64,000 nt of DNA, taken from Vannielia litorea (GTDB lineage Bacteria; Pseudomonadota; Alphaproteobacteria; Rhodobacterales; Rhodobacteraceae). Under the pieces are notes generated by a model. The model had not been told where the DNA came from, searched no databases, and worked only from the letters and a program-made list of their open reading frames with translations. Shown here one piece after another: positions 2,998 to 14,361 of this stretch. The translations under genes were made by a program, and so were the position numbers. The stretch lies in assembly GCF_900142295.1 (NCBI RefSeq), contig NZ_FSRL01000001.1, forward strand, positions 930,001 to 994,000, in the 5' to 3' direction. Within the stretch, counting starts at the first letter, position 1, and every line of letters begins with the position of its first letter.

Positions 2998-4677
2998 TCA
3001 CTCCACCGAGAAGGCCACCATCGAGAGGTCCGGGGAGATCCCCCGGGCCTCGAGTTCTTTCGCAAGCGCCGCGAAGAAGGCCGAAGCCTCCGCGCCGTTC
3101 TCCGCCGTAACCACGTCGAGCCGCGCGGGCGTGCCCACCGCCAGCAGGAGCTGCTGGGTCACCACCGGCCCGGCGGTCAGGTTCATCGGGATCGAAAAGC
3201 GCGCCCCCTCGCGGGTGAACTGCAAAAACCCGTCGAGCGCCTGCACCGTGCCCTCGTCGTCGATAAGAAGAAAATGCACCACCTGTCCCGAGACGTTGAG
3301 GATGCGCCCCTCGAGGTAGTCGCCCGAGGCGATCACCCGGTCGCTCATGTCGAAATAGAGGTTGAAGGCCGGGTAGGCCCGCGCCTCGCGGATGAAGACG
3401 AGCGCGGCGCATTGGGCCTCGCTCACCGGCTTGAGGAAGGTGTTGGGGATCTCGCCGGTCTGCGCCTCCATCCCGGCCCGAAAGCCGTCGAGCGAGGCCG
3501 AAGTCGGGCCGAAGGCATCGAGGGTGAGCTGGGCGGTCTCCTCTCCCAGCGCCGGCAGGGCGGCAAAGCAGGGGCCGCCGTCATAGGTCTTGAGGTAGTC
3601 GAGAATCGCAGTGTAGCGGGTCCGGTCGGCCTCGGAGATGTCGCTCTCGGGGGCGGGCGCAGCAAGCCCGCCCTCGGTGCCCGGGCCGGGCAGCTCGCTC
3701 TCGCGCTCGGGCGGCGGCGGGGCGGCGGCGACATCCTCCACAGGCTCCGCATCGGGGGCGGTGGGGGCAAGGCGCTCGGGCTCCATGCCCTCGGGAAGGG
3801 CCGGCGCGGCGGCCACCCGCTCGGGCGGGGCGGAGGCGGCGGCCACGGTATCGGCGGGCGGGGCCTCGCTCCCCTCGGGCGCAGGTGCGGCGGCAGGCTC
3901 GGGCGCGGCGGCCACCTGCACCCCTCCGGTCTCGCGCACGGCCTCCTGCGCCTCCACCTCCGCCTCGGCCCTGAGCCGCTCGCGGCCCTCGTCCTGCCCG
4001 GCAACCACCCGGTCGTCGGACACCCGCGCCGTCGCGGTCTCGGGCACCTCCTCGGGCGCGCGCGCGGCGCTGGCCACCTCGGCGCGGCTGGCCTCCTCGG
4101 TCACTACCGGCGCGGCGGTGATCCGCGCGGGCGTGGCCTCGCGCGCCTGCTGCACCTCCTCGGCACGGGCCGCCTGCGCGGTATCGGCCCGCGCGGCGGG
4201 GGCCGCGCCCGACTGAGCCGCCACCGGCGCACCGGTGATCCGGGTCACGCCTTCGCTCACCGGCTCGGCGGCGGCAGGGGCCGGGGGCGCAGCGGGCGCG
4301 GCCGCGACCCGCTCGGTCGGCGCCGGGGTGACCGGCGCGGCCACCGGGTCGGCCCGCTCGGGCGCCGCGGCCACCGTGGCGGGCTCCTGCGGGGCAGGGG
4401 GGGCGGGCTCGGGCGGCGCGGGAGCTTCGGCGGCGGCCACCGCCTCGGCCTCGGCCACCGTCGGCTGCGCCGCCTGCGTCGCCATCTCTATCATCTCCAC
4501 CGTTACTTCGGTCTCCACCGGGGCGTCCTGCGGCGCAGGGTCCGGCATCCGCTCGCTGGCCCAGGTGAAGGCGGCGAGATGGGCGGCCACGGCCAGCAGG
4601 AGCGCCGCGGCCCAGAGCACCGTCTCGGTCTGCGCGCGCGGCTCGATGTAGCGCACCGGGCTCTCGGCGTAGCTCAT
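2998..4677 (-). CDS. TonB-like inner-membrane protein with long Ala/Pro/Glu-rich periplasmic arm and unrecognised C-terminal domain
   Basis: 559 residues. One membrane helix near the N terminus (about 18-38) contains a His (H33), as in TonB, whose single helix carries a conserved His. It is followed by some 300 residues dominated by Ala, Pro, Glu and Val, a typical periplasm-spanning arm. The last 190 residues form a folded-looking domain with two cysteines (C370, C423) that could form a disulfide; I do not recognise it, and it does not look like a standard TonB C-terminal domain. The gene starts inside the stop of the preceding exbD-like gene (ATGA overlap at 4674-4677), the last member of an exbB-exbD-exbD operon. 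A role as the energy-transducing rod of that motor is inferred from topology and position. Confidence 0.7.
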   Translation of the reverse strand: MSYAESPVRYIEPRAQTETVLWAAALLLAVAAHLAAFTWASERMPDPAPQDAPVETEVTVEMIEMATQAAQPTVAEAEAVAAAEAPAPPEPAPPAPQEPATVAAAPERADPVAAPVTPAPTERVAAAPAAPPAPAAAEPVSEGVTRITGAPVAAQSGAAPAARADTAQAARAEEVQQAREATPARITAAPVVTEEASRAEVASAARAPEEVPETATARVSDDRVVAGQDEGRERLRAEAEVEAQEAVRETGGVQVAAAPEPAAAPAPEGSEAPPADTVAAASAPPERVAAAPALPEGMEPERLAPTAPDAEPVEDVAAAPPPPERESELPGPGTEGGLAAPAPESDISEADRTRYTAILDYLKTYDGGPCFAALPALGEETAQLTLDAFGPTSASLDGFRAGMEAQTGEIPNTFLKPVSEAQCAALVFIREARAYPAFNLYFDMSDRVIASGDYLEGRILNVSGQVVHFLLIDDEGTVQALDGFLQFTREGARFSIPMNLTAGPVVTQQLLLAVGTPARLDVVTAENGAEASAFFAALAKELEARGISPDLSMVAFSVE

Positions 4678-5087
4678 GGCCCGCCCGCCTTCAGCGTCAC
4701 CAGCTTCACGGTGCGGCCCGCCGGCAGCAGCACCTGCATCGCCCGCAGCAGCCGATCGGCGGCCATGTCGCGCGGGGCGAGAATGTAGACCGCGTTGGGC
4801 TGACCCTCGGGCGGCGGCGCGCGCAGCGCCTCCACCACCGCGGCCTCGCCCAGGGGCGCACCATCGAGCGACCAGTTGCCCTCGCCGTCGATCAGCAGCA
4901 GCGGGCGCGGCAAGCGCTCCAGCGGCAGCTCGGTGGTCTCCGCCAGGTCGACGGCCAGCTCGTCGGTCTCCACGATCGTGCCGACCACCAGGAAGAAGAG
5001 CACCAGCAGCAGCACGATGTTCACCTGCGCCAGCCCGAAATCGGGGCGGCGGCGATGGCGCTGGGCGGCGAGCCGGGAGGCAAGCAT
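4674..5087 (-). CDS. ExbD/TolR-like protein, second paralogue, with Asn in place of the motor Asp
   Basis: 137 residues: a basic N terminus, one membrane helix (about 17-37) and a small periplasmic domain ending LVTLKAGGP, matching ExbD/TolR topology. In ExbD and TolR the helix starts with a conserved Asp that carries the proton. Here the aligned stretch reads LAQVNIVLLLVLFF, so the position is Asn23 (codon AAC on the minus strand, checked in the DNA). The neighbouring ExbD has the normal Asp. The gene is 52 bp downstream of that paralogue and overlaps the TonB-like gene by ATGA. The family call is firm; whether this protein is a non-protonated partner in a mixed ExbD dimer is inference. Confidence 0.8.
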   Translation of the reverse strand: MLASRLAAQRHRRRPDFGLAQVNIVLLLVLFFLVVGTIVETDELAVDLAETTELPLERLPRPLLLIDGEGNWSLDGAPLGEAAVVEALRAPPPEGQPNAVYILAPRDMAADRLLRAMQVLLPAGRTVKLVTLKAGGP

Positions 5088-5139
5088 CAGCGGGCCCCCC
5101 GTGCGGGCGGCCGGTCGCGCGGATCGGCGGCCGCGCCCC

Positions 5140-5682
5140 TCACAGCCCCGGCTTTCCGATGAGCCGCAGCCTGGCCACCTCGCCCACCCGGATCGCCTCG
5201 ATCACCGTGGCCACGTCCTGCGTGGTGGCGACGGGCGTGGTGAACAGCAGGATCTCCTCCAGCCCGCGCTCCTTCAGCGCCGGGATCAGCTGCGGCAGCG
5301 CGTCGAGCGGCAGCACGGCGGACCCCGCCCGCAATTCGCCCCGCCCGACATGCCAGATGACGATGCTCGAGGCCCCGCCGCCCGGCGCGCTGTCGGGCGC
5401 GGCGCTCTTGCCGGCGGGGGCGGCAGGTGTGCCCAGCGTGATCAGCGAATAGGGCGCAAGCGAGGTCGAGAGCATGAAGAAGATCAGCAGCTGGAACATC
5501 ACGTCGGCCAGCGGGGTGAGGGCAAAGGGCGCCTTCCGGTCGCCGCGGGTGTCGGGCAGGTAGACATCGCCGGGGCGGCTGCCCGAGCTGCCGATGGCGG
5601 TCGCTCCGCCCGCGTGGCCCGCCCCGCCCGAGAGCCCGGTGGCATGGGGCATCGGCCCGCCGATGACCGTCTTGCCCGCCAC
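5140..5682 (-). CDS. exbD: ExbD/TolR-like biopolymer transport protein, first paralogue (canonical Asp)
   Basis: 180 residues. A glycine-rich cytoplasmic N-terminal extension of about 50 residues precedes the membrane helix, which begins LTPLADVMFQLLIFFML and includes the conserved proton-carrying Asp (D60). The periplasmic part (about 80-180) follows ExbD/TolR pattern. ExbD works with the ExbB pentamer to convert proton flow into movement of a partner such as TonB or TolA. The gene begins 10 bp after exbB and is followed by the Asn-bearing paralogue. The long glycine-rich N-terminal tail is unusual for ExbD, which normally has a short one. Confidence 0.88.
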   Translation of the reverse strand: MAGKTVIGGPMPHATGLSGGAGHAGGATAIGSSGSRPGDVYLPDTRGDRKAPFALTPLADVMFQLLIFFMLSTSLAPYSLITLGTPAAPAGKSAAPDSAPGGGASSIVIWHVGRGELRAGSAVLPLDALPQLIPALKERGLEEILLFTTPVATTQDVATVIEAIRVGEVARLRLIGKPGL

Positions 5683-5692
5683 TCCCCCCGCC

Positions 5693-6343
5693 TCAGACGA
5701 TCGTCTTGCCCGGCCGGGTCTCCACCCGCCCGTGCAACACGGTCGATATCAGGCGCTCCAGCGTCTCGCGCTCGCGGGCGATGCGGCCCTCGAGCCAGAG
5801 CGAGATGAAATAGAAGAAGATCGCGATGGCAAGGCCCGCCGCCGTGGTGATGAGCGCGGTCCAGATCCCGCCTGCCAGAACGCTTGGGTCCACCGCCCCC
5901 TCGGCGCGGGAGAGCCTGCCGAAGGCCTCGATCATGCCCACCACGGTGCCCAGCAGCCCCAGCATCGGCGCCGCCTGAACCACTGCCTCCAGCGCGTTCA
6001 TCCGCCGGCCCATCAGCGCCAGCTCGTCGAGCGCGGTCTGGGTGGCGAGTTCGCGGGCAAAGTCGCGGTCGCCGGGGTTGGAGCGCAGCGCCGAGAGCGC
6101 GGCAAAGAGCACCCGCACGGCGGAGGTGTTGCGCTTTTCGGCCAGGGCCAGCGCGCCGTCGCCATCGCCGCGCAGGTATTTTTCAACGATCTGGCCGGGC
6201 AGCCGGCGCCGGCCCACGCCCAGCCGCATGAACTGGAAAACCTTGAACAGCGCCACGGTGAGCGCCACCAGCGAGGCCCCCGCGAGAACCGCCAGAATAG
6301 CCCAGGCGTAGCCGTTCAGCCCTTCAGGCAAGTAGGCGTCCAT
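5693..6343 (-). CDS. exbB: MotA/TolQ/ExbB proton channel family protein
   Basis: 216 residues with three membrane helices: about 12-35, a second containing the family motif AAPMLGLLGTVVGMIEAF near 124-141, and a third near 158-180 (TALITTAAGLAIAIFFYF). A long cytoplasmic segment separates helices 1 and 2, as in ExbB/TolQ. Length and motif are typical. Only 34 bp separate it from the upstream exported-protein gene, and exbD follows after 10 bp, so this is an operon of exported protein, exbB, exbD, exbD and a TonB-like gene. No Tol-Pal genes (tolB, pal, ybgC) are nearby, so this is probably not the housekeeping Tol system. Confidence 0.92.
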   Translation of the reverse strand: MDAYLPEGLNGYAWAILAVLAGASLVALTVALFKVFQFMRLGVGRRRLPGQIVEKYLRGDGDGALALAEKRNTSAVRVLFAALSALRSNPGDRDFARELATQTALDELALMGRRMNALEAVVQAAPMLGLLGTVVGMIEAFGRLSRAEGAVDPSVLAGGIWTALITTAAGLAIAIFFYFISLWLEGRIARERETLERLISTVLHGRVETRPGKTIV

Positions 6344-6377
6344 TCGCCCCTCCCGTTACACGGGTCCGAGGCGGCGC

Positions 6378-6800
6378 TCAAAGCCCGAACTGGATTTCGG
6401 CGCGCGACGAGGTGGTGAGCCCGCTCATGCAGTCGGGGCTGGCCCCGCCGGCGCCCACGCATTCGCTGACCGAGTTGACCAGAAGCCGCGAGATGTTCGA
6501 ACAGGCCATGTCGGCGAGGTCGAACTGCACCACCTTGGTCTTGTCGGCCTGAAGCTGCCCGAACTCCAGGATCAGCAGGCGCGAAACCACGCCGTCCTGG
6601 TCGAAGACAGCCACCTCGTAGGAGGCCTTCTCAAGCCCCTCGCCGGTGTTGTTGGTCGCCACATAGGTCAGGCGGCAGCCTTCGCCGACATCGCGGGCGG
6701 CGTTGAGTTCGAGGCCAAAGTTGCCCGCCTGCGCAAAGGCCGGAAGGCCGGTGCCAGCCGCCAGGGCGGCGGCGAGAAGCGTGGTCGAAAAGGTTTTCAT
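6378..6800 (-). CDS. Small exported protein of unknown function, first gene of the exbB operon
   Basis: 140 residues. The start is the ATG at 6800, because GGGGAGGCGCGACG lies just upstream and the first 23 residues (MKTFSTTLLAAALAAGTGLP...AFA-QA) form a clear cleavable signal peptide; an upstream GTG/ATG would add a tail that breaks it. The mature part contains a beta-rich stretch (CRLTYVATNNTGEGLEKASY) resembling an Ig-like fold, and four cysteines in total, two of them flanking the C-terminal part. I recognise no family. It is 34 bp upstream of exbB and likely cotranscribed, so it may be a periplasmic partner of that motor (inference). Confidence 0.75.
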   Translation of the reverse strand: MKTFSTTLLAAALAAGTGLPAFAQAGNFGLELNAARDVGEGCRLTYVATNNTGEGLEKASYEVAVFDQDGVVSRLLILEFGQLQADKTKVVQFDLADMACSNISRLLVNSVSECVGAGGASPDCMSGLTTSSRAEIQFGL

Positions 6801-6945
6801 TACAGGCACGTCGCGCCTCCCCGTTGCGATGAGTTCTTGTGGGCAAAGTGCTAACACGCGGCTTCGTCTGCGCAAAGCCTTCGGTTGCGAAATTCGCGCG
6901 ACGGCGGGCAGGGCGGGCCCGAAGATGCCGCGCCCCCAACGTCAA

Positions 6946-6979
6946 AGGGCCCGGCGTGCGCTTGGCGCAGCCGGGCCCT
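6946..6979 (-). terminator. Probable terminator of the leftward gene at 7004-7522
   Basis: A perfect 10-bp inverted repeat, AGGGCCCGGC (6946-6955) with GCCGGGCCCT (6970-6979). The interior TGCGC-TTG-GCGCA can extend the stem to about 15 bp with one bulge. On the minus strand it is followed by only three T residues, so termination strength is uncertain. Confidence 0.6.
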
Positions 6980-7003
6980 CGAAGGCTCAGGATGTGGCCG
7001 GGG

Positions 7004-7522
7004 TCAGCGGAACTCGCCGACGCTCCAGATCGCGCCTGTCTTGATCTTCGAGCCGCCGCGCGGGCTCTTCGTGCGGGTCCGCACGATCACCTGCTTGCCG
7101 GTCTCGGGCCGGGTCGTGACGGTGGTGCCGAGGTCGGCCGCGGCCAGCAGGTCGGGGCGCGGCAGCGGCGGGGTGATCCGCTCGCCGTCGTTGCCGCCGC
7201 CATTGCTGTCCGAGGGCGCGCGGTCGGCCACGCGGTCGTCCTGACGGGTGCTGTCGTCGATCTGCTGATCTTCCCGCGCCACGATCTCTTCGGACTCGCG
7301 CATTTCGCTCAGCGAGGCCGACGTTTCCTTCGCCATGTCGCCGGTGGATCCGAGGAACTCGGAGGCGGCGTCATCGGAGGAGGAGATGCGGTCCAGCTTC
7401 GACAGGCCCGGGATGGCGGGGGCCATCACGTGGAACTTGGCGATCTGGGCGGAGGCGGGGGCGACAAGAACCATCGACACGGCTGCGGCGGCCATCATCG
7501 GCTTTACGAACTTCACAGTCAT
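7004..7522 (-). CDS. Exported protein of unknown function
   Basis: 172 residues. The first 26 (MTVKFVKPMMAAAAVSMVLV...ASA-Q) are a typical signal peptide and an SD (GGAGAGAAACC) precedes the ATG. The mature protein is polar and acidic in the middle (many Ser, Glu, Asp, including SSSDDAASEFLG), with a basic C terminus (KSPRGGSKIKTG), and has no cysteines. I know no family for it. It is transcribed alone from a good promoter (7546-7574), ends at a hairpin, and is divergent from the DUF1036 gene. Its position between the exbB operon and the caspase genes suggests the same envelope system, but that is inference. Confidence 0.72.
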   Translation of the reverse strand: MTVKFVKPMMAAAAVSMVLVAPASAQIAKFHVMAPAIPGLSKLDRISSSDDAASEFLGSTGDMAKETSASLSEMRESEEIVAREDQQIDDSTRQDDRVADRAPSDSNGGGNDGERITPPLPRPDLLAAADLGTTVTTRPETGKQVIVRTRTKSPRGGSKIKTGAIWSVGEFR

Positions 7523-7545
7523 GGTTTCTCTCCAGCGTTGTTGCC

Positions 7546-7574
7546 AGACTACTCTCTCACGCGATTGTTTTCAA
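7546..7574 (-). promoter_or_regulatory. Predicted sigma-70-type promoter for the exported-protein gene at 7522
   Basis: Read on the minus strand: TTGAAA, 17-bp spacer, TAGTCT, about 24 bp before the ATG. Both hexamers are close to consensus. It lies in the 112-bp divergent region shared with the DUF1036 gene. Confidence 0.5.
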
Positions 7575-7634
7575 TCTGCGGCCCAAAAGTGGCGATTTCT
7601 TGCCCATCCTCCAAAAAGCGGCTTAAGTCGCGCC

Positions 7635-8069
7635 ATGTCGCGCAGATTGTTATCGAGAAACGCCGCCTTCATTGCCGTTGCCTGCGCCGCAACCCTCGTC
7701 GGATCGGGCCGCGCGGAGGCCGAATTTGCCGTCTGCAACCAGAGTTTCGATGTCATCAACGTGGCGATCGGGCAGCTTGTTGACAGCCAGTTCCAGACCG
7801 AGGGCTGGTGGACCATCGGCACCAACCAATGCGCCAATGTCATCAAGGAAGAGCTCTCCAACCGCTACATCTATGTCTACGCCACCGACGTCTTCGGCCA
7901 GCCGATTCTGGATGGCTCGGTTTCCATGTGCATCGGCGCCAAGGCCTTCGAGATCGAGGGGATCGAAAGCTGCTGGGAGCGCGGCCACCGCGCCGCGATG
8001 TTCCACGAGGTCGATACCCAGGCCACCGTGCGCTGGACTCTCTTCATCACTCCGCCGGGCGGCGGCTGA
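7635..8069 (+). CDS. DUF1036 family exported protein
   Basis: 144 residues. The start at 7635 gives a signal peptide (SRRLLSRNAAFIAVACAATL...AEA-EF) and leaves the DUF1036 core intact. The core shows FAVCNQSFDVINVAIG, EGWWTIGTNQC and NRYIYVYATDVFG, followed by further cysteines (MCIG, ESCWE), the cysteine-rich pattern of that family. DUF1036 proteins are small secreted or periplasmic proteins of unknown role, common in Rhodobacterales. A longer frame upstream crosses the divergent promoter region and is not credible. It is 143 bp upstream of the first caspase gene in the same direction. Confidence 0.85.
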   Translation: MSRRLLSRNAAFIAVACAATLVGSGRAEAEFAVCNQSFDVINVAIGQLVDSQFQTEGWWTIGTNQCANVIKEELSNRYIYVYATDVFGQPILDGSVSMCIGAKAFEIEGIESCWERGHRAAMFHEVDTQATVRWTLFITPPGGG

Positions 8070-8212
8070 CCGGCGGGAGGGGTTGAATTGACCCGGCGGA
8101 AATCACATCTTGTTGAAGACAAAGATTTGAACGGCTCAGGGTCGCATTTTCGAACCCCTTCCGTTACAGTGATACACAAGTTTTTTGACCCAGAGATGAT
8201 TGGCGGCTGACC

Positions 8213-10249
8213 ATGGCGACTGCGCCCGAAACCCGAACCTTCTCCAAAACTCTTGCCCAGGCGGGGCTCGGCTTCAGGTCGGCGACCGCGCTCGTGGGGG
8301 ATGTCGCCCGCAAGGCGGGCCTCACCCGCGCCGCCCGCAGCGCGCCGCTCGCCCTGGTCTTCGTCACCGCCGCCACCCTGACCGCCGAGGCCAAGCGCGT
8401 GGCCCTGGTGGTCGGCAACGCCGATTACGACAACGTCTACGCCCTGAAGAACGCCACCAACGACGCGCAGGATCTCGCCGCCGCGCTGGAGCGGCTCGAT
8501 TTCGAGGTCACCCTGCTGACCGACGCCACCGAGGCCGATTTCTGGAGCCGGCTCGATACCTTCGCCGCCTCCGCCGCAGAGGCCGAGAGCGCCATGTTCT
8601 TCTTCTCGGGCCATGCGTTCCAGCTGGGCGGCGCCAACTATCTCGTGCCCAAGGACGCCACCCTCGCCTCGAAGGAAGCCATCGAGAACGAGACCTGGCG
8701 CCTCGACGAGATCGTCAAGCGGCTCTCGGCCAAGAACCGCCAGACCCTGATCTTCCTCGACGCCTGCCGCAACAACCCGCTGCCCGAGAGCCTGCGCGGC
8801 GGAGCCGAGGGCCTGGCGCAGATGGAGAAGGGCTCGGGCACCTTCGTGGCCTTCGCCACCCAGCCCAACAACGTCACCTCCGACGGGGCAGGGGAGAACT
8901 CGCCCTTCACCCAGGCCCTGCTGAACCACATCGAGGAGCCGGGCATCTCGGTCTCCGACCTGATGATCCGCGTCCGCAACGACGTGGAGAGCGAGACCTT
9001 CGGCCGCCAGACCCCCTGGGACCAGTCCTCGCTCCGCGCCCAGTTCTACTTCAACCCGCAGGTCGAGCAGACCGCGGAGCTGACCGACGCCGACTACGAG
9101 CTGATCGCCGCGCTCGACCCCGAGACCCGCAAGCGCCTGCTCGCGGCCCTGGGCAACTCGGGCACGAACATCGTGATCGAGGATGTCGAGGAGGAGGTCG
9201 AGGAGATCGTCGAGGCCGTGGCCATCGTCGATATCGTCGACGTGCCCGACGAGAACACGCCCACCGAGACCCCGGGCAAGGCCACCGGCGATACCGTCGT
9301 GGCCTCCAACGAGGCCGACACCGCCACCGGCGCCGACAGCGCCGTCGTGGTCATCGGCGGCGACCAGGCCCCCGAGCGGGTGGCCGCAGGCGGCGAGACC
9401 GAAACCGCGGATCCGACCGGCGACGCCACCACCGTGGTGGCCTCCAACGAGGCGCAGCGCACCGAGGGCACCGTGGGCGCCGAGCGTGTGACCGGCACCG
9501 AGGTCGCGGGCGCCGAGCGCGTCACCGGCTCCGAAGTGACGGGCACCGAAGTGGCCGGCGCCGAGCGCGTGACCGGCACCGAGGTCACCGGCGCCGAGAG
9601 CACCGGCACCGATGTGGCCGCCGCCGTGCCCGCCGACCCGAACGGCAGCCGCACCAAGGTGATCGGCCCCGACGGCGAGGAGCGCGAGGCGGTGATCCTC
9701 GCAGGTCTCGCCCCGACCCGTTCGCTCGAGCCCTCCACCGCCGAGCCGCGCAGCCGCGTGGTCGGCCAGGAGATCGAACGCGACAGCGAGGAGGCCCGCG
9801 CCGCCGGCGTGGCCCCCGAGGCCCCCAAACTCACCGGCAAGGATCTGGCGATGGCCGTGCAGACCGAGCTGAGCCGCCTGGGCTGCTACCGCATGGCGAT
9901 CGACGGCGACTGGGGCAAGGGCTCCCGCGTGTCGCTGTTCCGCTACTATGCCGCCCGCGCCATCGCCACCGACCAGCTCGAGCCCACCAACTCGCTCCTG
10001 CGCAGGCTGGAGGCCGATGACGAGGTGGCCTGCAAGGCCGTGCAGCAGGTGGCCTCCAAGAAGGCCTCCCAGGCGATCACCCAGGTTCGCAAGGCCGCGG
10101 CGACCAAGCGCCAGGCCGCGCCGACCAAAGCCGCCGCCAGCTCCTCGAGCAAGAAGCGCATCCAGGGCAACACCACCACCGTCCGCACCAAGTCGGGCGG
10201 CACCAAGAAGACTGTGACCAAGAAACTTCGGGCCGGCGTGTTCCGCTGA
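8213..10249 (+). CDS. Exported caspase family (C14-like) protein with C-terminal peptidoglycan-binding-like domain
   Basis: 678 residues. An N-terminal hydrophobic stretch (about 43-58, ending TAEA-KR) looks like a late signal sequence or anchor. The caspase p20-like domain (about 61-285) begins KRVALVVGNADYDN and has the catalytic dyad H134 (FFFSGHAFQ) and C185 (IFLDACRNN). An acidic low-complexity middle (about 310-540) includes an imperfect GAERVTGTEV repeat. Residues about 540-582 (LSRLGCYRMAIDGDWG) match the peptidoglycan-binding-domain-like pattern, followed by a basic Ala/Lys-rich tail. Bacterial caspases of this type cleave after basic residues in studied cases; no substrate is evident here. 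A second, shorter paralogue follows after 49 bp. Confidence 0.88.
   Translation: MATAPETRTFSKTLAQAGLGFRSATALVGDVARKAGLTRAARSAPLALVFVTAATLTAEAKRVALVVGNADYDNVYALKNATNDAQDLAAALERLDFEVTLLTDATEADFWSRLDTFAASAAEAESAMFFFSGHAFQLGGANYLVPKDATLASKEAIENETWRLDEIVKRLSAKNRQTLIFLDACRNNPLPESLRGGAEGLAQMEKGSGTFVAFATQPNNVTSDGAGENSPFTQALLNHIEEPGISVSDLMIRVRNDVESETFGRQTPWDQSSLRAQFYFNPQVEQTAELTDADYELIAALDPETRKRLLAALGNSGTNIVIEDVEEEVEEIVEAVAIVDIVDVPDENTPTETPGKATGDTVVASNEADTATGADSAVVVIGGDQAPERVAAGGETETADPTGDATTVVASNEAQRTEGTVGAERVTGTEVAGAERVTGSEVTGTEVAGAERVTGTEVTGAESTGTDVAAAVPADPNGSRTKVIGPDGEEREAVILAGLAPTRSLEPSTAEPRSRVVGQEIERDSEEARAAGVAPEAPKLTGKDLAMAVQTELSRLGCYRMAIDGDWGKGSRVSLFRYYAARAIATDQLEPTNSLLRRLEADDEVACKAVQQVASKKASQAITQVRKAAATKRQAAPTKAAASSSSKKRIQGNTTTVRTKSGGTKKTVTKKLRAGVFR
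9476..9622 (+). repeat. Imperfect tandem repeat inside the first caspase gene
   Basis: Three near-identical GAERVTG(T/S)EV units and a decayed fourth (GAESTGTDV), about 11 to 16 codons each, with matching DNA (GGCGCCGAGCG in each). The segment lies in the acidic linker between the caspase and the C-terminal domain and probably varies in copy number between strains. Confidence 0.7.
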
Positions 10250-10298
10250 TCCGCAACGTCCCGCCGTGGACGGGCAAGACCGTTTGGGGGAGGGCGAG

Positions 10299-11912
10299 AT
10301 GGTCCCTGTGATCGCTGTGTTCCTGCGCATCACCCGCCGCCGCCTGCGCGGCGCGGTGCTGCTGCTTGCTGCGCTTGTCGCGCTTGCAGGCGATCCGGCC
10401 CGCGCCGAGGGCCGCGTGGCGCTGGTGATCGGCAACGCGGGCTACACCGCGCTTCAGCCGCTGGCCAACCCGGTGAACGACGCCAAGGGCATCGCCGCCG
10501 CGCTCGAGCGCATCGGCTTCGAGGTCACGCTTGTCACCGACGCCCCGCACGACCGGCTCGCGCCCGTGGTCGATGCCTTCGCCGCCCGCGCCGAAAGCGC
10601 CGAGACCGTGCTCTTCTACTACTCCGGCCATGCCTTCCAGCAGAACGGCCGCAACCTCCTGGTGCCGGCCGATGCCGCGCTCGGCGCCCCCGAGGCCTTC
10701 GAGGCCGAAACCTGGTCGTTCTCCGACGACATCGTCGCCCGGCTCTCCGGCGAGGGTCGGCAGACGCTCTTCTTCCTCGATGCCTGCCGGACCAACCCGC
10801 TGCCCCTGTCGCTGCGCGGCGCGGTGGGCGACGGGCTGGCCAAGCCCGACACCGGCACCGGCTCCTTCGTGGCCTTCGCCACCCAGCCCGGCGCCGTCGC
10901 CCGCGACGGTCTGGGCGTCAACAGCCCCTTCACCCTCGCCATGCTGAAGCACATGGAAACGCCGGGCATCTCGATCTCCGACCTGATGATCGCCGTGCGC
11001 AACGAGGTGGTCGCCGAGACCCGCGAGACCCAGGTGCCCTGGGACCAGTCCAGCCTGCGGGCGCAATTCTACTTCGTGCCGGTGGAGGAGGCGGGCGACG
11101 AGCTGACCGAGGCCGACCTCGACGCCATCGGCGGGCTCGACGAGGAGAGCATCCGCAACGTGATCGGCGCGCTCGCCGACAACGGCGTGACGCTCGAGAT
11201 CCTCGTGGTCGAGGACGAGCCCACCGAGGTGGCCGATGCCACCCCCAACCCGATCGTCGCCATCGACGAGGTCGAGGACCCCAACCAGGCGGCCACCGAC
11301 CCGGAGACGGGCACCGGCGACGAAGACACCCAGGTCGCCATGCTCGATGACACCCGCTCCGTCGGTGACGACGCCCCGGACGACACCGGCGAAGCCACCC
11401 TGGCCGACAAGGTCGCCGCCGCCGAGGCGGTGGTGGCCGCCGCCGCCGCCCGCGCCAGCACCGGCCCCACCGAGGCCGATCTCGCCGCCGTCGAGCTGCC
11501 CGGCGACCTGCCCCTCGCGATCCAGCAGGAGCTGTCGCGCACCGGCTGCCACCGCGCCGTGGTGGATGGCATCTGGGGCAAGGTCAGCCGCATCTCGCTG
11601 CTGCGCTACTACACCGCCAAGGGCAAGGTCACGGCAGAGGAGGCCCGCGCCGAGCCGACCGAGCTGGCCTATCGCCGCCTTGCGCTGGAGCCCGGCGTGG
11701 TGTGCGAGGGCGTGGTCGCCGCGCCGGTTCGCACCGCCTCGGCCAGCACCGGCAGCAAGCGCACCGTGGTGCAGAAGGCCGCCGCCCCCGCCGCGGCCAC
11801 GACCGCGCCCAAGACCACCACGCCGCGCATCTCCAGCAAGCCCACCACCAGTTCCTCTGGCACCAGGGTGCCGCCCAAGATCAACCGCGCCAAGCCGGGA
11901 GTTTTTCGTTAA
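10299..11912 (+). CDS. Second exported caspase family protein with C-terminal peptidoglycan-binding-like domain
   Basis: 537 residues from the ATG at 10299, chosen because TTTGGGGGAGGGCGAG immediately precedes it and it gives a clean signal peptide (RRRLRGAVLLLAALVALAG...ARA-EG); a GTG at 10266 is also in frame. The caspase domain (about 38-260) has H111 (YYSGHAFQQ) and C163 (FFLDACRTN) and parallels the upstream gene closely, including LRAQFYF and SDLMI segments. An acidic linker leads to LSRTGCHRAVVDGIWG (about 410-450), the same domain as in the first caspase, and a Lys/Arg/Thr tail. The pair is evidently a tandem duplication. Both keep their catalytic residues, so both may be active. Confidence 0.88.
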   Translation: MVPVIAVFLRITRRRLRGAVLLLAALVALAGDPARAEGRVALVIGNAGYTALQPLANPVNDAKGIAAALERIGFEVTLVTDAPHDRLAPVVDAFAARAESAETVLFYYSGHAFQQNGRNLLVPADAALGAPEAFEAETWSFSDDIVARLSGEGRQTLFFLDACRTNPLPLSLRGAVGDGLAKPDTGTGSFVAFATQPGAVARDGLGVNSPFTLAMLKHMETPGISISDLMIAVRNEVVAETRETQVPWDQSSLRAQFYFVPVEEAGDELTEADLDAIGGLDEESIRNVIGALADNGVTLEILVVEDEPTEVADATPNPIVAIDEVEDPNQAATDPETGTGDEDTQVAMLDDTRSVGDDAPDDTGEATLADKVAAAEAVVAAAAARASTGPTEADLAAVELPGDLPLAIQQELSRTGCHRAVVDGIWGKVSRISLLRYYTAKGKVTAEEARAEPTELAYRRLALEPGVVCEGVVAAPVRTASASTGSKRTVVQKAAAPAAATTAPKTTTPRISSKPTTSSSGTRVPPKINRAKPGVFR

Positions 11913-11961
11913 ACTCCGGGTATATCGTTGAAAACCGCCCCGATCCTGTCATCGTGACGCC

Positions 11962-14361
11962 GTGCTGAAAGATCAGATAGACCCGCGCTTCACCCAGGCC
12001 GCCAGCGCCGCCAAACGGCGCAAGCGCGCGGCCCGGCGCGGGCGCGTGCTGATCGGCCTGGTGGCGACGCTGCCGGTGCTGCTGATCGGCCTCGGCATCT
12101 GGCTGACCTGGGACAAGTGGACCTTCAACACCGGCGGTGGCGAGGTGGCCGAGGAAGACCTCGACGAGGGCTTCGCCATCTCTTCCGACGAGGATACCGC
12201 CGCGGCCTCCTCCGCCTTCGTCGCCGCCTTCGTCGATCTCGCTGGCGACCCGCTCATCATCCGCTTCGCCGAAAGCGGCGATGACACCAGGAAAAAGCTC
12301 GACGCCCCCGCCTCGCTGCGCGGCGACCGCGTTCCGCGCGGCGAGCTGGTGCTGGTGAGCGACGTGATGGTTTCGACCGAGGCCCGCTTCGTGACCACGC
12401 TGCCCTCCAGCCAGGAGGATTTCGCCTTCTTCCAGCTCCAGAAGAGCGCGCCCCGCAAGGCCGAGGAAGCCTCTGCGGAGGAGGCCCGTGAGGTGGCCGG
12501 CGCGCTCGGAGAGGCCGGCGCCGACGAGGCCGCCGAAGACCTGGGCGAGGTGGCCGAGACCGAGGGTTACGAAGAAACCGCGCTCGACGACGAGACCGGC
12601 GGCTGGGGCGAGGCTGTGGGCGAGGGCGAGCAGGAGGTGCCCGGCTTCACCGAAACCGTGATCGAGAACACCACATCGGTCGTCTACACCCGCCCGCAGG
12701 ACCTGCGCGACAAGCTCGACCGGGATATCTTCGTCAAGATCCAGTACGACCGCGCCCTCGACGAGCTTCTGGTCGACAACGGCTTCTTCGAGAACGAGGC
12801 CAAGGCGGTGGCCGAGGCGGCGCTGGAGTATTTCCAGCTCGAGGGCCTGAAGGCGGGGCAGGTGGTGGCGATGCGCGGCCAGCCCCAGCTCGGGGGCAGG
12901 CTCTCCTTCCGGCAGATGTCGATCTACGACAACGAGGTCTATTTCGGCACCCTGGCGATCACCGACGAGGGCGCCATCGGCCCCGGCTCCGACCCCTGGG
13001 TGGACGACGAGCTCTTCGACTACGCGGGCGAGGAAGAGGAGGAGCAGGTCACCGAGCAGCGTTACCGCATGCTCGATGCCTTCTACTCCGCCGCCATCCG
13101 CAACGGCATCCCCTCGGTGGTGGTGGGCGAGGGCATCGCGCTGCTGTCCAAGGAGCACGACCTCTCGGCCTTCGCCAACCCCGGCGACAAGATGCGCTTT
13201 CTCTACGCGCCGCCGAGCGAGGGCGACGAGGGCGGCACCGGCGCCAGCCGCATCCTCTACATCTCGATCCAGGGCGAGGCGGTCGATATCGAGTGCTTCG
13301 TCTACGCCACCAACGCCGAGGGCGACATGGGCTGCTTCGGGCTCAAGCCCAAGGCCGGCGGGGGCGGCGGCGGCGGGCTGGTCGGCGGCATGGTGACCCC
13401 GGTCAAGGGCGTGCTGACCTCGCGCTTCGGGCCGCGCCACCACCCGATCCTCAAGACCGTGCGCGTGCACAAGGGGGTGGATTGGGCCGCGCCCACCGGC
13501 ACACCGATCATCGCCGCCTTCGGCGGCACGGTGAGCTACGCGGGCGACGGCTCGGGCTATGGCAACCTGGTCAAGATCGACCATGGCAACGGCATGGAAA
13601 CCCGCTACGCCCACCTCGACCAGTTCGCCACCAGGGCCGGCACGCGGGTGCAGGCGGGCGACCTCATCGGCTACGTCGGCACCACCGGCCGCTCCACCGG
13701 CCCGCACCTGCATTTCGAGCTCTACATGGGCGGCCAGGCCGTGGACCCGCTGGGCGCTGCCGGCCCCGGCGGCGGCGCGGTGGCCTCGGGCGACAGCTCC
13801 GGTGCCGTGGAGGCGCTGGTCAACCAGATCATCCGGGTCGAGTCGGGCGGCAACGCCACCGCCAAGAACCCGCTCTCCAGCGCCACCGGCCTCGGCCAGT
13901 TCATCGAGAGCACCTGGATCCGGATGATGCGCACCTACCGGCCCGACCTCGCCTCGACCCTCTCGCGCGCCGAGCTGCTGGCGCTGCGCAACGACCCCAC
14001 GATCAGCCGCGAGATGGTCAAGCGGCTGGCGATGGAGGGCGAGAGCTACCTGCGGGCGCGGGGCCACGGCATCACCGCGGGCCGGCTCTACCTGTGCCAC
14101 TTCCTCGGCGCACAGGGCGCGGCGGTGGTGCTCTCCAGCCCCGACGACGCCATGCTGATCGACGTGCTGGGCGCGGGCGTGATCAAGGCCAACCCCTTCC
14201 TGACCGGCAAGAACGTGGCCTACGTGAAGGCCTGGGCCGAGCGCAAGATGTCGGGCTCCAAGGGCGCGGTGGTCGTCACCTCCGCCCCCGTGGTGATCCA
14301 GGAGCCCGGCGGGCTGCCCGACTACCGCAAGGACATCAACGCGCTGCTCACCCGCATCTGA
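11962..14361 (+). CDS. Membrane-anchored dual wall hydrolase: M23 (LytM) endopeptidase fused to a lytic-transglycosylase-like domain
   Basis: 799 residues from a GTG at 11962, 49 bp after the second caspase. A basic N terminus and one membrane helix (about 28-48) are followed by a long acidic, partly coiled periplasmic region (about 50-460). The M23 domain (about 475-600) has the zinc motif H503-KGV-D507 and H582-L-H584. The last about 170 residues carry the SLT-type start IRVESGGNATAKN with the presumed catalytic E627 and the ATGLGQF motif. Such a protein could cut both peptide cross-links and glycan strands. The M23 region is complete, and the transglycosylase part is shorter than in stand-alone Slt proteins. 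Cotranscription with the caspases is likely. Confidence 0.9.
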   Translation: MLKDQIDPRFTQAASAAKRRKRAARRGRVLIGLVATLPVLLIGLGIWLTWDKWTFNTGGGEVAEEDLDEGFAISSDEDTAAASSAFVAAFVDLAGDPLIIRFAESGDDTRKKLDAPASLRGDRVPRGELVLVSDVMVSTEARFVTTLPSSQEDFAFFQLQKSAPRKAEEASAEEAREVAGALGEAGADEAAEDLGEVAETEGYEETALDDETGGWGEAVGEGEQEVPGFTETVIENTTSVVYTRPQDLRDKLDRDIFVKIQYDRALDELLVDNGFFENEAKAVAEAALEYFQLEGLKAGQVVAMRGQPQLGGRLSFRQMSIYDNEVYFGTLAITDEGAIGPGSDPWVDDELFDYAGEEEEEQVTEQRYRMLDAFYSAAIRNGIPSVVVGEGIALLSKEHDLSAFANPGDKMRFLYAPPSEGDEGGTGASRILYISIQGEAVDIECFVYATNAEGDMGCFGLKPKAGGGGGGGLVGGMVTPVKGVLTSRFGPRHHPILKTVRVHKGVDWAAPTGTPIIAAFGGTVSYAGDGSGYGNLVKIDHGNGMETRYAHLDQFATRAGTRVQAGDLIGYVGTTGRSTGPHLHFELYMGGQAVDPLGAAGPGGGAVASGDSSGAVEALVNQIIRVESGGNATAKNPLSSATGLGQFIESTWIRMMRTYRPDLASTLSRAELLALRNDPTISREMVKRLAMEGESYLRARGHGITAGRLYLCHFLGAQGAAVVLSSPDDAMLIDVLGAGVIKANPFLTGKNVAYVKAWAERKMSGSKGAVVVTSAPVVIQEPGGLPDYRKDINALLTRI

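Follow-up and report, generated by a model that had tools for sequence, protein, structure and literature searches.

A candidate accessory module of type VI secretion combining an Exb-type motor, caspase-domain proteins and a wall hydrolase in Vannielia litorea

A 64,000-nucleotide stretch of the Vannielia litorea genome (RefSeq assembly GCF_900142295.1, contig NZ_FSRL01000001.1, forward-strand positions 930,001 to 994,000), henceforth termed the window, contains a block of ten genes that places a proton motor of the ExbB/ExbD type beside two caspase-domain proteins and a putative cell wall hydrolase. Judging from comparative sequence analysis, we lean towards reading the block, proton motor included, as an accessory module of the type VI secretion system (T6SS), a needle weapon used by bacteria against rivals, and such a module would likely sense the envelope. 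This reading draws on a conserved motor core, the replacement of its TonB end, co-occurrence with T6SS, adjacency in relatives to a block of Ser/Thr kinase (STK), PppA, TagF and TssM genes, and homology between a domain of the motor operon and a domain of the kinase. The original prediction, made from the window alone, had proposed a free-standing proton-driven system controlling proteolysis or wall cutting in the periplasm. Its gene list stands in full, on the strands and at the positions given below and with Pfam support for ExbB, ExbD, DUF1036, caspase and M23; the system does not appear to be free-standing in the sampled genomes, where it instead goes with T6SS. Open-licence literature, in which subscription papers and preprints are largely uncovered, yielded no account linking T6SS, Exb-type motors and caspases; text that mentions the three together names them apart. 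The genes of the block are as follows, with ExpA and ExpB denoting small exported proteins and CaspA and CaspB caspase-domain proteins.

2998..4677, minus strand: TonB-like protein, 559 aa; N-terminal membrane helix, low-complexity spacer and 220-aa C-terminal domain (Z)
4674..5087, minus strand: ExbD2; Pfam ExbD, with Asn at the motor Asp position
5140..5682, minus strand: ExbD1; Pfam ExbD, motor Asp present
5693..6343, minus strand: ExbB, proton-channel subunit; Pfam ExbB
6378..6800, minus strand: ExpA, small exported protein; first core gene in X, Y and Z operons (defined below)
7004..7522, minus strand: ExpB, small exported protein, fast-evolving; C-terminus WSVGEFR
7635..8069, plus strand: DUF1036 protein; Pfam DUF1036, signal-like N-terminus
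8213..10249, plus strand: CaspA, exported caspase-domain protein; His-Cys dyad present, C-terminus GVFR
10266..11912, plus strand: CaspB, second caspase-domain protein; His-Cys dyad present, C-terminus GVFR
11962..14361, plus strand: M23-SLT; membrane anchor, M23 endopeptidase and lytic-transglycosylase-like domain

From ExpA onward, the genes of the leftward operon are separated by 34, 10 and 52 bases and then overlap by 4. Pfam matches of the window proteins were obtained for ExbB (E 2.9e-27; 95.4 bits against a cut-off of 22.9), the two ExbD proteins (1.8e-8 and 1.9e-7; 31.6 bits for ExbD against 25.4), DUF1036 (3.9e-32), the caspase domains (2e-37 and 2.8e-33) and M23 (1.5e-36). The expectation that the products are membrane-bound or exported is borne out by a computed hydrophobic segment in seven of the ten; ExpA, the DUF1036 protein and CaspA have N-termini that appear signal-like, judged by eye only. 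The nearest named ExbB matches are from Vannielia litorea (95%) and from a metagenome-assembled genome labelled Oceanicola sp. (94%).

To place the block in its family, we used a sample of 218 Rhodobacteraceae genomes, one per genus, in which ExpA occurs in 76 genomes at 92 places; all 92 were fetched with up to 10 kb on each side and mapped by hidden Markov models. The core ExpA-ExbB-ExbD1-ExbD2 occurs across Rhodobacteraceae and is followed by one of three kinds of fifth gene, with a true TonB end (X), a DUF4384 end (Y) or the end found in the window (Z). The 92 loci divide into 52 X (one operon, L238 and L241, being counted twice), 19 Y, 11 Z and 10 unclassified. Both X fifth genes tested against Pfam (L213, L219) match TonB_2 and TonB_C, and both Y fifth genes tested (L251, L269) exceed the cut-off for DUF4384 (PF14326; 1.3e-10 and 4.6e-7), a family with no Pfam match in the window or among Z members. 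The TonB-like protein of the window has no Pfam match, and its C-terminus hits no family even at E<=10, TonB_C and TonB_2 included. Of the predicted TonB resemblance, the N-terminal membrane helix and the Ala/Pro/Glu-rich spacer are there, but a TonB_C domain is absent and the protein is not TonB.

The three kinds also differ in company. None of the 52 X loci has a caspase domain within the fetched ~10 kb on either side; one was found there at 13/19 Y, 7/11 Z and 1/10 unclassified loci. Of the other four Z loci, three contain no more of the caspase gene than its C-terminal part, and the fourth is a 6-kb contig. An STK gene lies nearby at 0/52 X, 4/19 Y, 6/11 Z and 0/10 unclassified loci. A sample of 385 genomes at class level added 36 ExpA places (15 X, 20 unclassified and 1 Z), with a caspase domain and a kinase at the Z place only. 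As the 34 of these that lie outside the window's family (the Z place and one X place fall within it) are either X (14) or unclassified (20) and none has a caspase, Y and Z look like innovations within Rhodobacteraceae on a Ton-type core; Y and Z each form one clade in an ExbB tree. The ExpA-like proteins are themselves an undescribed small family, whose window member has no match in Pfam or NCBIfam. At the class-sample loci L309-L342 they lie beside Exb-TonB operons (14) or are without such Exb genes or unclassified (20).

The C-terminal domain that takes the place of TonB_C in Z operons is a homologue of the one found at the C-terminus of Z-type kinases (hhalign 99.5%, E 4.1e-23). Models built from fifth genes only match the kinases of their own lineage, with six Z kinases found by the Z model (best 8.3e-23) and three of four Y kinases by the Y model (best 5e-11), and neither model matches kinases of the other kind. 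Eleven Y-domain genomes contain a second, weak Y-domain match in an open reading frame (ORF) of 701-781 aa, which lies within 8 kb of the T6SS gene TssK in eight cases, at 31 kb in one and on another contig in two; most of these ORFs would be kinases. The two domains are found together in none of the 218 sampled genomes. A structure model of the Z domain (pLDDT, the predicted local distance difference test score, 93) comprises helix-strand-strand-helix-strand-helix, a beta-sandwich, a helix and a last strand, and the Y model (pLDDT 76) has the same order of elements. Each domain contains an invariant Cys and an invariant Gln-Cys, with the Cys residues 53 and 55 residues apart.

TssK (PF05936) is present in 47 of the 218 family genomes. 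Every genome that has M23-SLT or an operon of the Y or Z kind contains it (33/33), compared with 14 of the 185 others (Fisher p 2.6e-28, phylogeny ignored). By profile alone, where domain matches may come from the fifth gene or the kinase, TssK accompanies the Y domain in 23/23, the Z domain in 14/14 and M23-SLT in 11/11 genomes; across the union of markers it is present in 39/39 genomes vs 8/179 of the rest, such that markers occur only where a T6SS is present. Genomes with X operons and none of the other markers contain TssK in 3 of 38 cases. Where both are on one contig, no more than 27 kb separate TssK from ExpA in 13 of the 14 Y genomes (770 kb in the other), and no more than 14 kb do so in four of the seven Z genomes; the distance exceeds 400 kb in three X genomes.

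Beside the TonB-like gene, a search with four proteins of the window genome as queries located an STK-PppA-TagF-TssM block at the Z loci L009, L010, L012 (the same locus as L181), L187, L192, L240 and L307, and by the fifth gene of the Y locus L247; L014, L191 and L193 have STK and PppA only. The module operon and the kinase operon converge. The window genome encodes, at C1:2096276, an 808-aa kinase that is its sole other Z-domain match and that neighbours a PP2C phosphatase, TagF (8.9e-34) and TssM/IcmF (1.8e-67). At this locus (C1:2095800-2103800, L343) the kinase gene abuts what by eye is an aroQ-like gene, at the place that the Exb operon occupies in relatives, which suggests that the cluster was split by rearrangement in the window lineage. 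The module is thus encoded in or beside T6SS clusters in relatives but not in the window genome. The stretch leading to TssK in the Y genome G128 encodes a ClpB/ClpV-like ATPase, a VgrG-like protein and an FHA protein with a T6SS_FHA_C domain. A survey of caspase genes, which scored at most five candidates per genome and hence gives lower bounds, listed at least 149 matches, among them at least 97 in T6SS genomes, at least 46 on the TssK contig and at least 34 within 40 kb of TssK. In Y genomes such as those with clusters at G106 C26, G128 C9 and G108 C35, a second caspase gene lies ~12-15 kb beyond TssK, so that caspases flank the T6SS cluster.

The alternative closest to the original prediction is that the block forms a free-standing system for general upkeep of the envelope, with either proteolysis by the caspases or cutting of the wall under control of the motor, the T6SS link being an inherited neighborhood. 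It can point to the intact caspase dyads of the window and to three Z genomes in which the block is intact and the operon shares a contig with TssK at a distance of 0.15-2.57 Mb (1.17 Mb in the window genome, 0.15 Mb in G149, 2.57 Mb in G175). These separated genomes, however, still hold both T6SS and module, which argues for function over neighborhood; all 39 marker genomes have a T6SS, and caspase catalysis has been lost in some relatives. We regard this explanation as unlikely.

Within Rhodobacteraceae the two halves of the block belong together, as had been predicted. M23-SLT is found in 11 of the 218 family genomes, near full length in ten and covering positions 460-782 of 784 in G028; the count leaves out G048, G054 and G086, where the match is confined to the M23 part, and the profile search may overlook orthologues without the M23 half. 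All 11 genomes also have ExpA, which lies on the same contig as M23-SLT in seven, 2.1-5.2 kb away, and on a different, broken contig in four. For the window's kind, the neighborhood check did not find the leftward operon and the rightward set independent and far apart. The divergent layout is retained in L007-L010, L012 and L013 (loci fetched with ExbB), with a single caspase gene instead of two in L009, L010 and L012, which argues that the block is more than chance. The other motor lineage with caspases nearby, Y, has its genes in a different arrangement.

The dual wall hydrolase envisaged by the original prediction has a Pfam match in its M23 half (1.5e-36). The SLT match of 19.5 bits falls narrowly under the Pfam cut-off of 21.3, but conservation within the protein is highest in this region, whose catalytic-type Glu column, E627, is invariant in 8/8 aligned proteins. 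The zinc motifs HxxxD and HxH (HKGVD and HLHFEL in the window) are present in 7/8. Orthologues in L015 (2552-4567), L016 (16048-17001) and L017 (19506-20564) have the transglycosylase but not the M23 domain. Given the near-invariant transglycosylase half and the missing M23 half in these loci, transglycosylase is likely the constant activity of M23-SLT.

A wall enzyme tied to T6SS could also indicate an effector-immunity island, with M23-SLT and the caspases delivered as effectors that cut wall and protein, and DUF1036, ExpA or ExpB protecting the producer. Effector islands are usually variable, unlike M23-SLT, which is membrane-anchored, single-copy and strongly conserved at one place, and the caspases bear signal-like N-termini. 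The T6SS linkage of the block would fit such an island, and an Acinetobacter T6SS effector with transglycosylase and endopeptidase activity is known (PMC10433429); even so, we consider this interpretation decidedly improbable.

The motor itself differs between the kinds in its second ExbD. The membrane Asp of ExbD1 is kept in all rows (66/66 X, 19/19 Y, 12/12 Z), and the ExbD2 position is occupied by Asn in the window, in 63/63 X rows and in 11/12 Z rows (Ser in the remaining one), and by Asp in 19/19 Y rows. The window operon thus has the ExbB family and an ExbD with membrane Asp but no Asp in the second ExbD, and motors of the X and Z kinds likely run on a one-Asp pair. A Ser-x3-His-type motif (spelled SHLS) binds the motor (PMC12204202); a heuristic search found Ala-x3-His in the window protein, Ser in six, Ala in four and no motif in one of the Z rows, and Ser in 19/19 Y. 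The motor does not qualify as ZorA of Zorya defense (ZorA2 equivalog score 18.5 bits vs a cut-off of 700).

Could the operon be an ordinary TonB energizer for outer-membrane uptake, its TonB merely divergent? The series ExpA-ExbB-ExbD-ExbD is common to true TonB operons, and no other TonB was seen in the window genome, whose sole TonB_2 match adjoins another ExbB-family gene. That protein is probably TolA beside TolQ. Against an uptake role stand the lack of TonB_C in the window protein, whose C-terminal domain is that of T6SS-linked kinases, and the X operons, which keep no caspase or kinase company. We judge this possibility very remote.

CaspA and CaspB have the p20 domain with His-Cys dyad of orthocaspases, a family that cleaves after basic residues; the nearest solved relative is the MALT1 paracaspase (E 4.5e-15). 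In relatives, the His position holds Arg (L187) or Gly (L194), and no catalytic caspase domain was detected in L192, L195 or L240. The CaspB orthologue of L008 (4411-6000, minus strand) reads DANR for DACR, i.e., the catalytic Cys is replaced by Asn. Because relatives with a broken or missing caspase domain keep the rest of the block, catalysis appears optional rather than the constant of the module, and the predicted control of proteolysis falls as a constant function. The peptidoglycan-binding-like caspase ends of the original prediction are weak: of the 12 caspases in the alignment, four match PG_binding_1 at E<=1, the best of them with E 0.0053. The idea of lysis or cell death, in which activated caspases would cleave and unleash M23-SLT, accords with the single rightward run of caspases and wall hydrolase and with the intact window dyads but is the least probable alternative, since relatives retain the block with broken or missing caspase domains and L015-L017 lack the M23 half.

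ExpB, CaspA and CaspB share a C-terminal GxFR (7004-7024, minus; 10235-10249, plus; 11898-11912, plus) and are the only 3 of 406 closed window ORFs of at least 80 aa that end in this way. Directly upstream of ExpA, an ORF ending in G-x-[FY]-[RQ] is found at 9/11 Z (six strictly GxFR), 0/52 X, 0/19 Y and 1/10 unclassified loci, often with an unrecognizable body. When all ORFs of the fetched stretches are counted, 16 out of 1104 have this kind of ending at Z loci, compared with 6 out of 5795 at X loci and 2 out of 2268 at Y loci; GxFR tails number 29 among 2741 ORFs in 22 loci (L012/L181 counted twice) vs 3 among 4674 in 41 background loci (39 X and two unclassified). In our reading, the tail may be a docking code to a common reader. 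A strict code is contradicted by caspase genes without it (L185, L191, L193, L195, L015 and CaspB of L007 and L008) and by L015-L018, L020 and L183, where no upstream GxFR ORF was seen. The DNA pattern alone is not specific, given 34 matches across the window genome vs 12 in a reversed control.

Several findings weigh against assigning the block to T6SS. The window genome's own T6SS is 1.17 Mb away, 8 of the 47 T6SS genomes have no marker at all, and the co-occurrence statistics take no account of phylogeny. Six of the 19 Y loci show no caspase within reach, and in G121 (L185) the 20 kb fetched contain ExpA, DUF1036, a caspase and M23-SLT yet lack Exb genes. Profile comparison found no link between the Y and Z domains, and the kinase resembles PpkA by its kinase domain and neighbors only.

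In Pseudomonas, tagQRST adjoins ppkA-pppA-tagF. Damage to the envelope is sensed by TagQRST, whose action lies upstream of PpkA; PpkA works by dimerization, and PppA and TagF oppose this pathway (PMC10482370, PMC11881912, PMC3953482). Agrobacterium is reported to lack TagQRST and to have no known activator of its PpkA (PMC3953482, PMC10482370). The module resembles the TagQRST/PpkA-PppA-Fha pathway of the Pseudomonas H1-T6SS in that envelope proteins whose genes go with a T6SS lie beside a kinase, a PP2C phosphatase and TagF, with a proposed role upstream of the kinase (PMC10482370, PMC3953482, PMC11881912). The likeness is one of gene company and proposed role: TagQRST comprises an outer-membrane lipoprotein and an ABC-type pair, whereas the window kind has an Exb proton motor, whose ExbB and ExbD are not ABC-transporter families, and a TonB-like protein with the same kind of C-terminal domain as the kinase. 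Similarly, it shares with TonB-ExbB-ExbD the motor families, the N-terminal membrane helix, the spacer and a four-gene core also found with true TonB, but differs in the Z domain in place of TonB_C, an ExbD2 without Asp, and the caspases, wall hydrolase and T6SS nearby.

On the T6SS reading, the motor and TonB-like protein would take the role of TagQRST upstream of a PpkA-like kinase, which would be activated through the shared C-terminal domain, predicted to lie outside the membrane. Moved or loaded by proton flow, the TonB-like protein would engage this domain there and promote dimerization of the kinase. The transglycosylase of M23-SLT might open the wall for the T6SS needle, as MltE or TagX do elsewhere. 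The caspase proteins could be wall-associated partners, docked to the common reader by the GxFR tail shared with ExpB, and their proteolysis an optional, lineage-specific activity.

The ~18-nm-wide T6SS membrane complex needs wall hydrolases such as MltE or TagX, whose genes are seldom encoded in T6SS clusters (PMC10433429), a need that an anchored M23-SLT would fit. MltE (enteroaggregative E. coli) and TagX (Acinetobacter) are likewise T6SS-tied wall hydrolases, and MltE is also a lytic transglycosylase (PMC10433429), but M23-SLT is membrane-anchored and combines M23 with transglycosylase, while MltE is a housekeeping enzyme encoded outside the cluster. (Pseudo-)orthocaspases share the caspase fold and include dyad-less variants, also in Rhodobacterales; DUF4384 lies at the C-terminus of one alphaproteobacterial pseudo-orthocaspase clade and also occurs with N-terminal kinase domains (PMC6426788). 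Here, by contrast, caspase and DUF4384-type protein come from distinct genes that a motor operon links, and there is a GxFR tail. SjdR of Anabaena is likewise TonB-like and is concerned with the structure of the wall, not with uptake, but it is cyanobacterial and septal, and the excerpted account notes no caspase or T6SS link (PMC8262864).

The module makes it testable what switches on the PpkA kinase in alphaproteobacteria and how the T6SS membrane complex crosses the wall. If our reading is true, exported bacterial caspases would gain a concrete partner system, a TonB would have exchanged its outer-membrane receptor for a kinase domain as target, and an energized motor would be added to T6SS.

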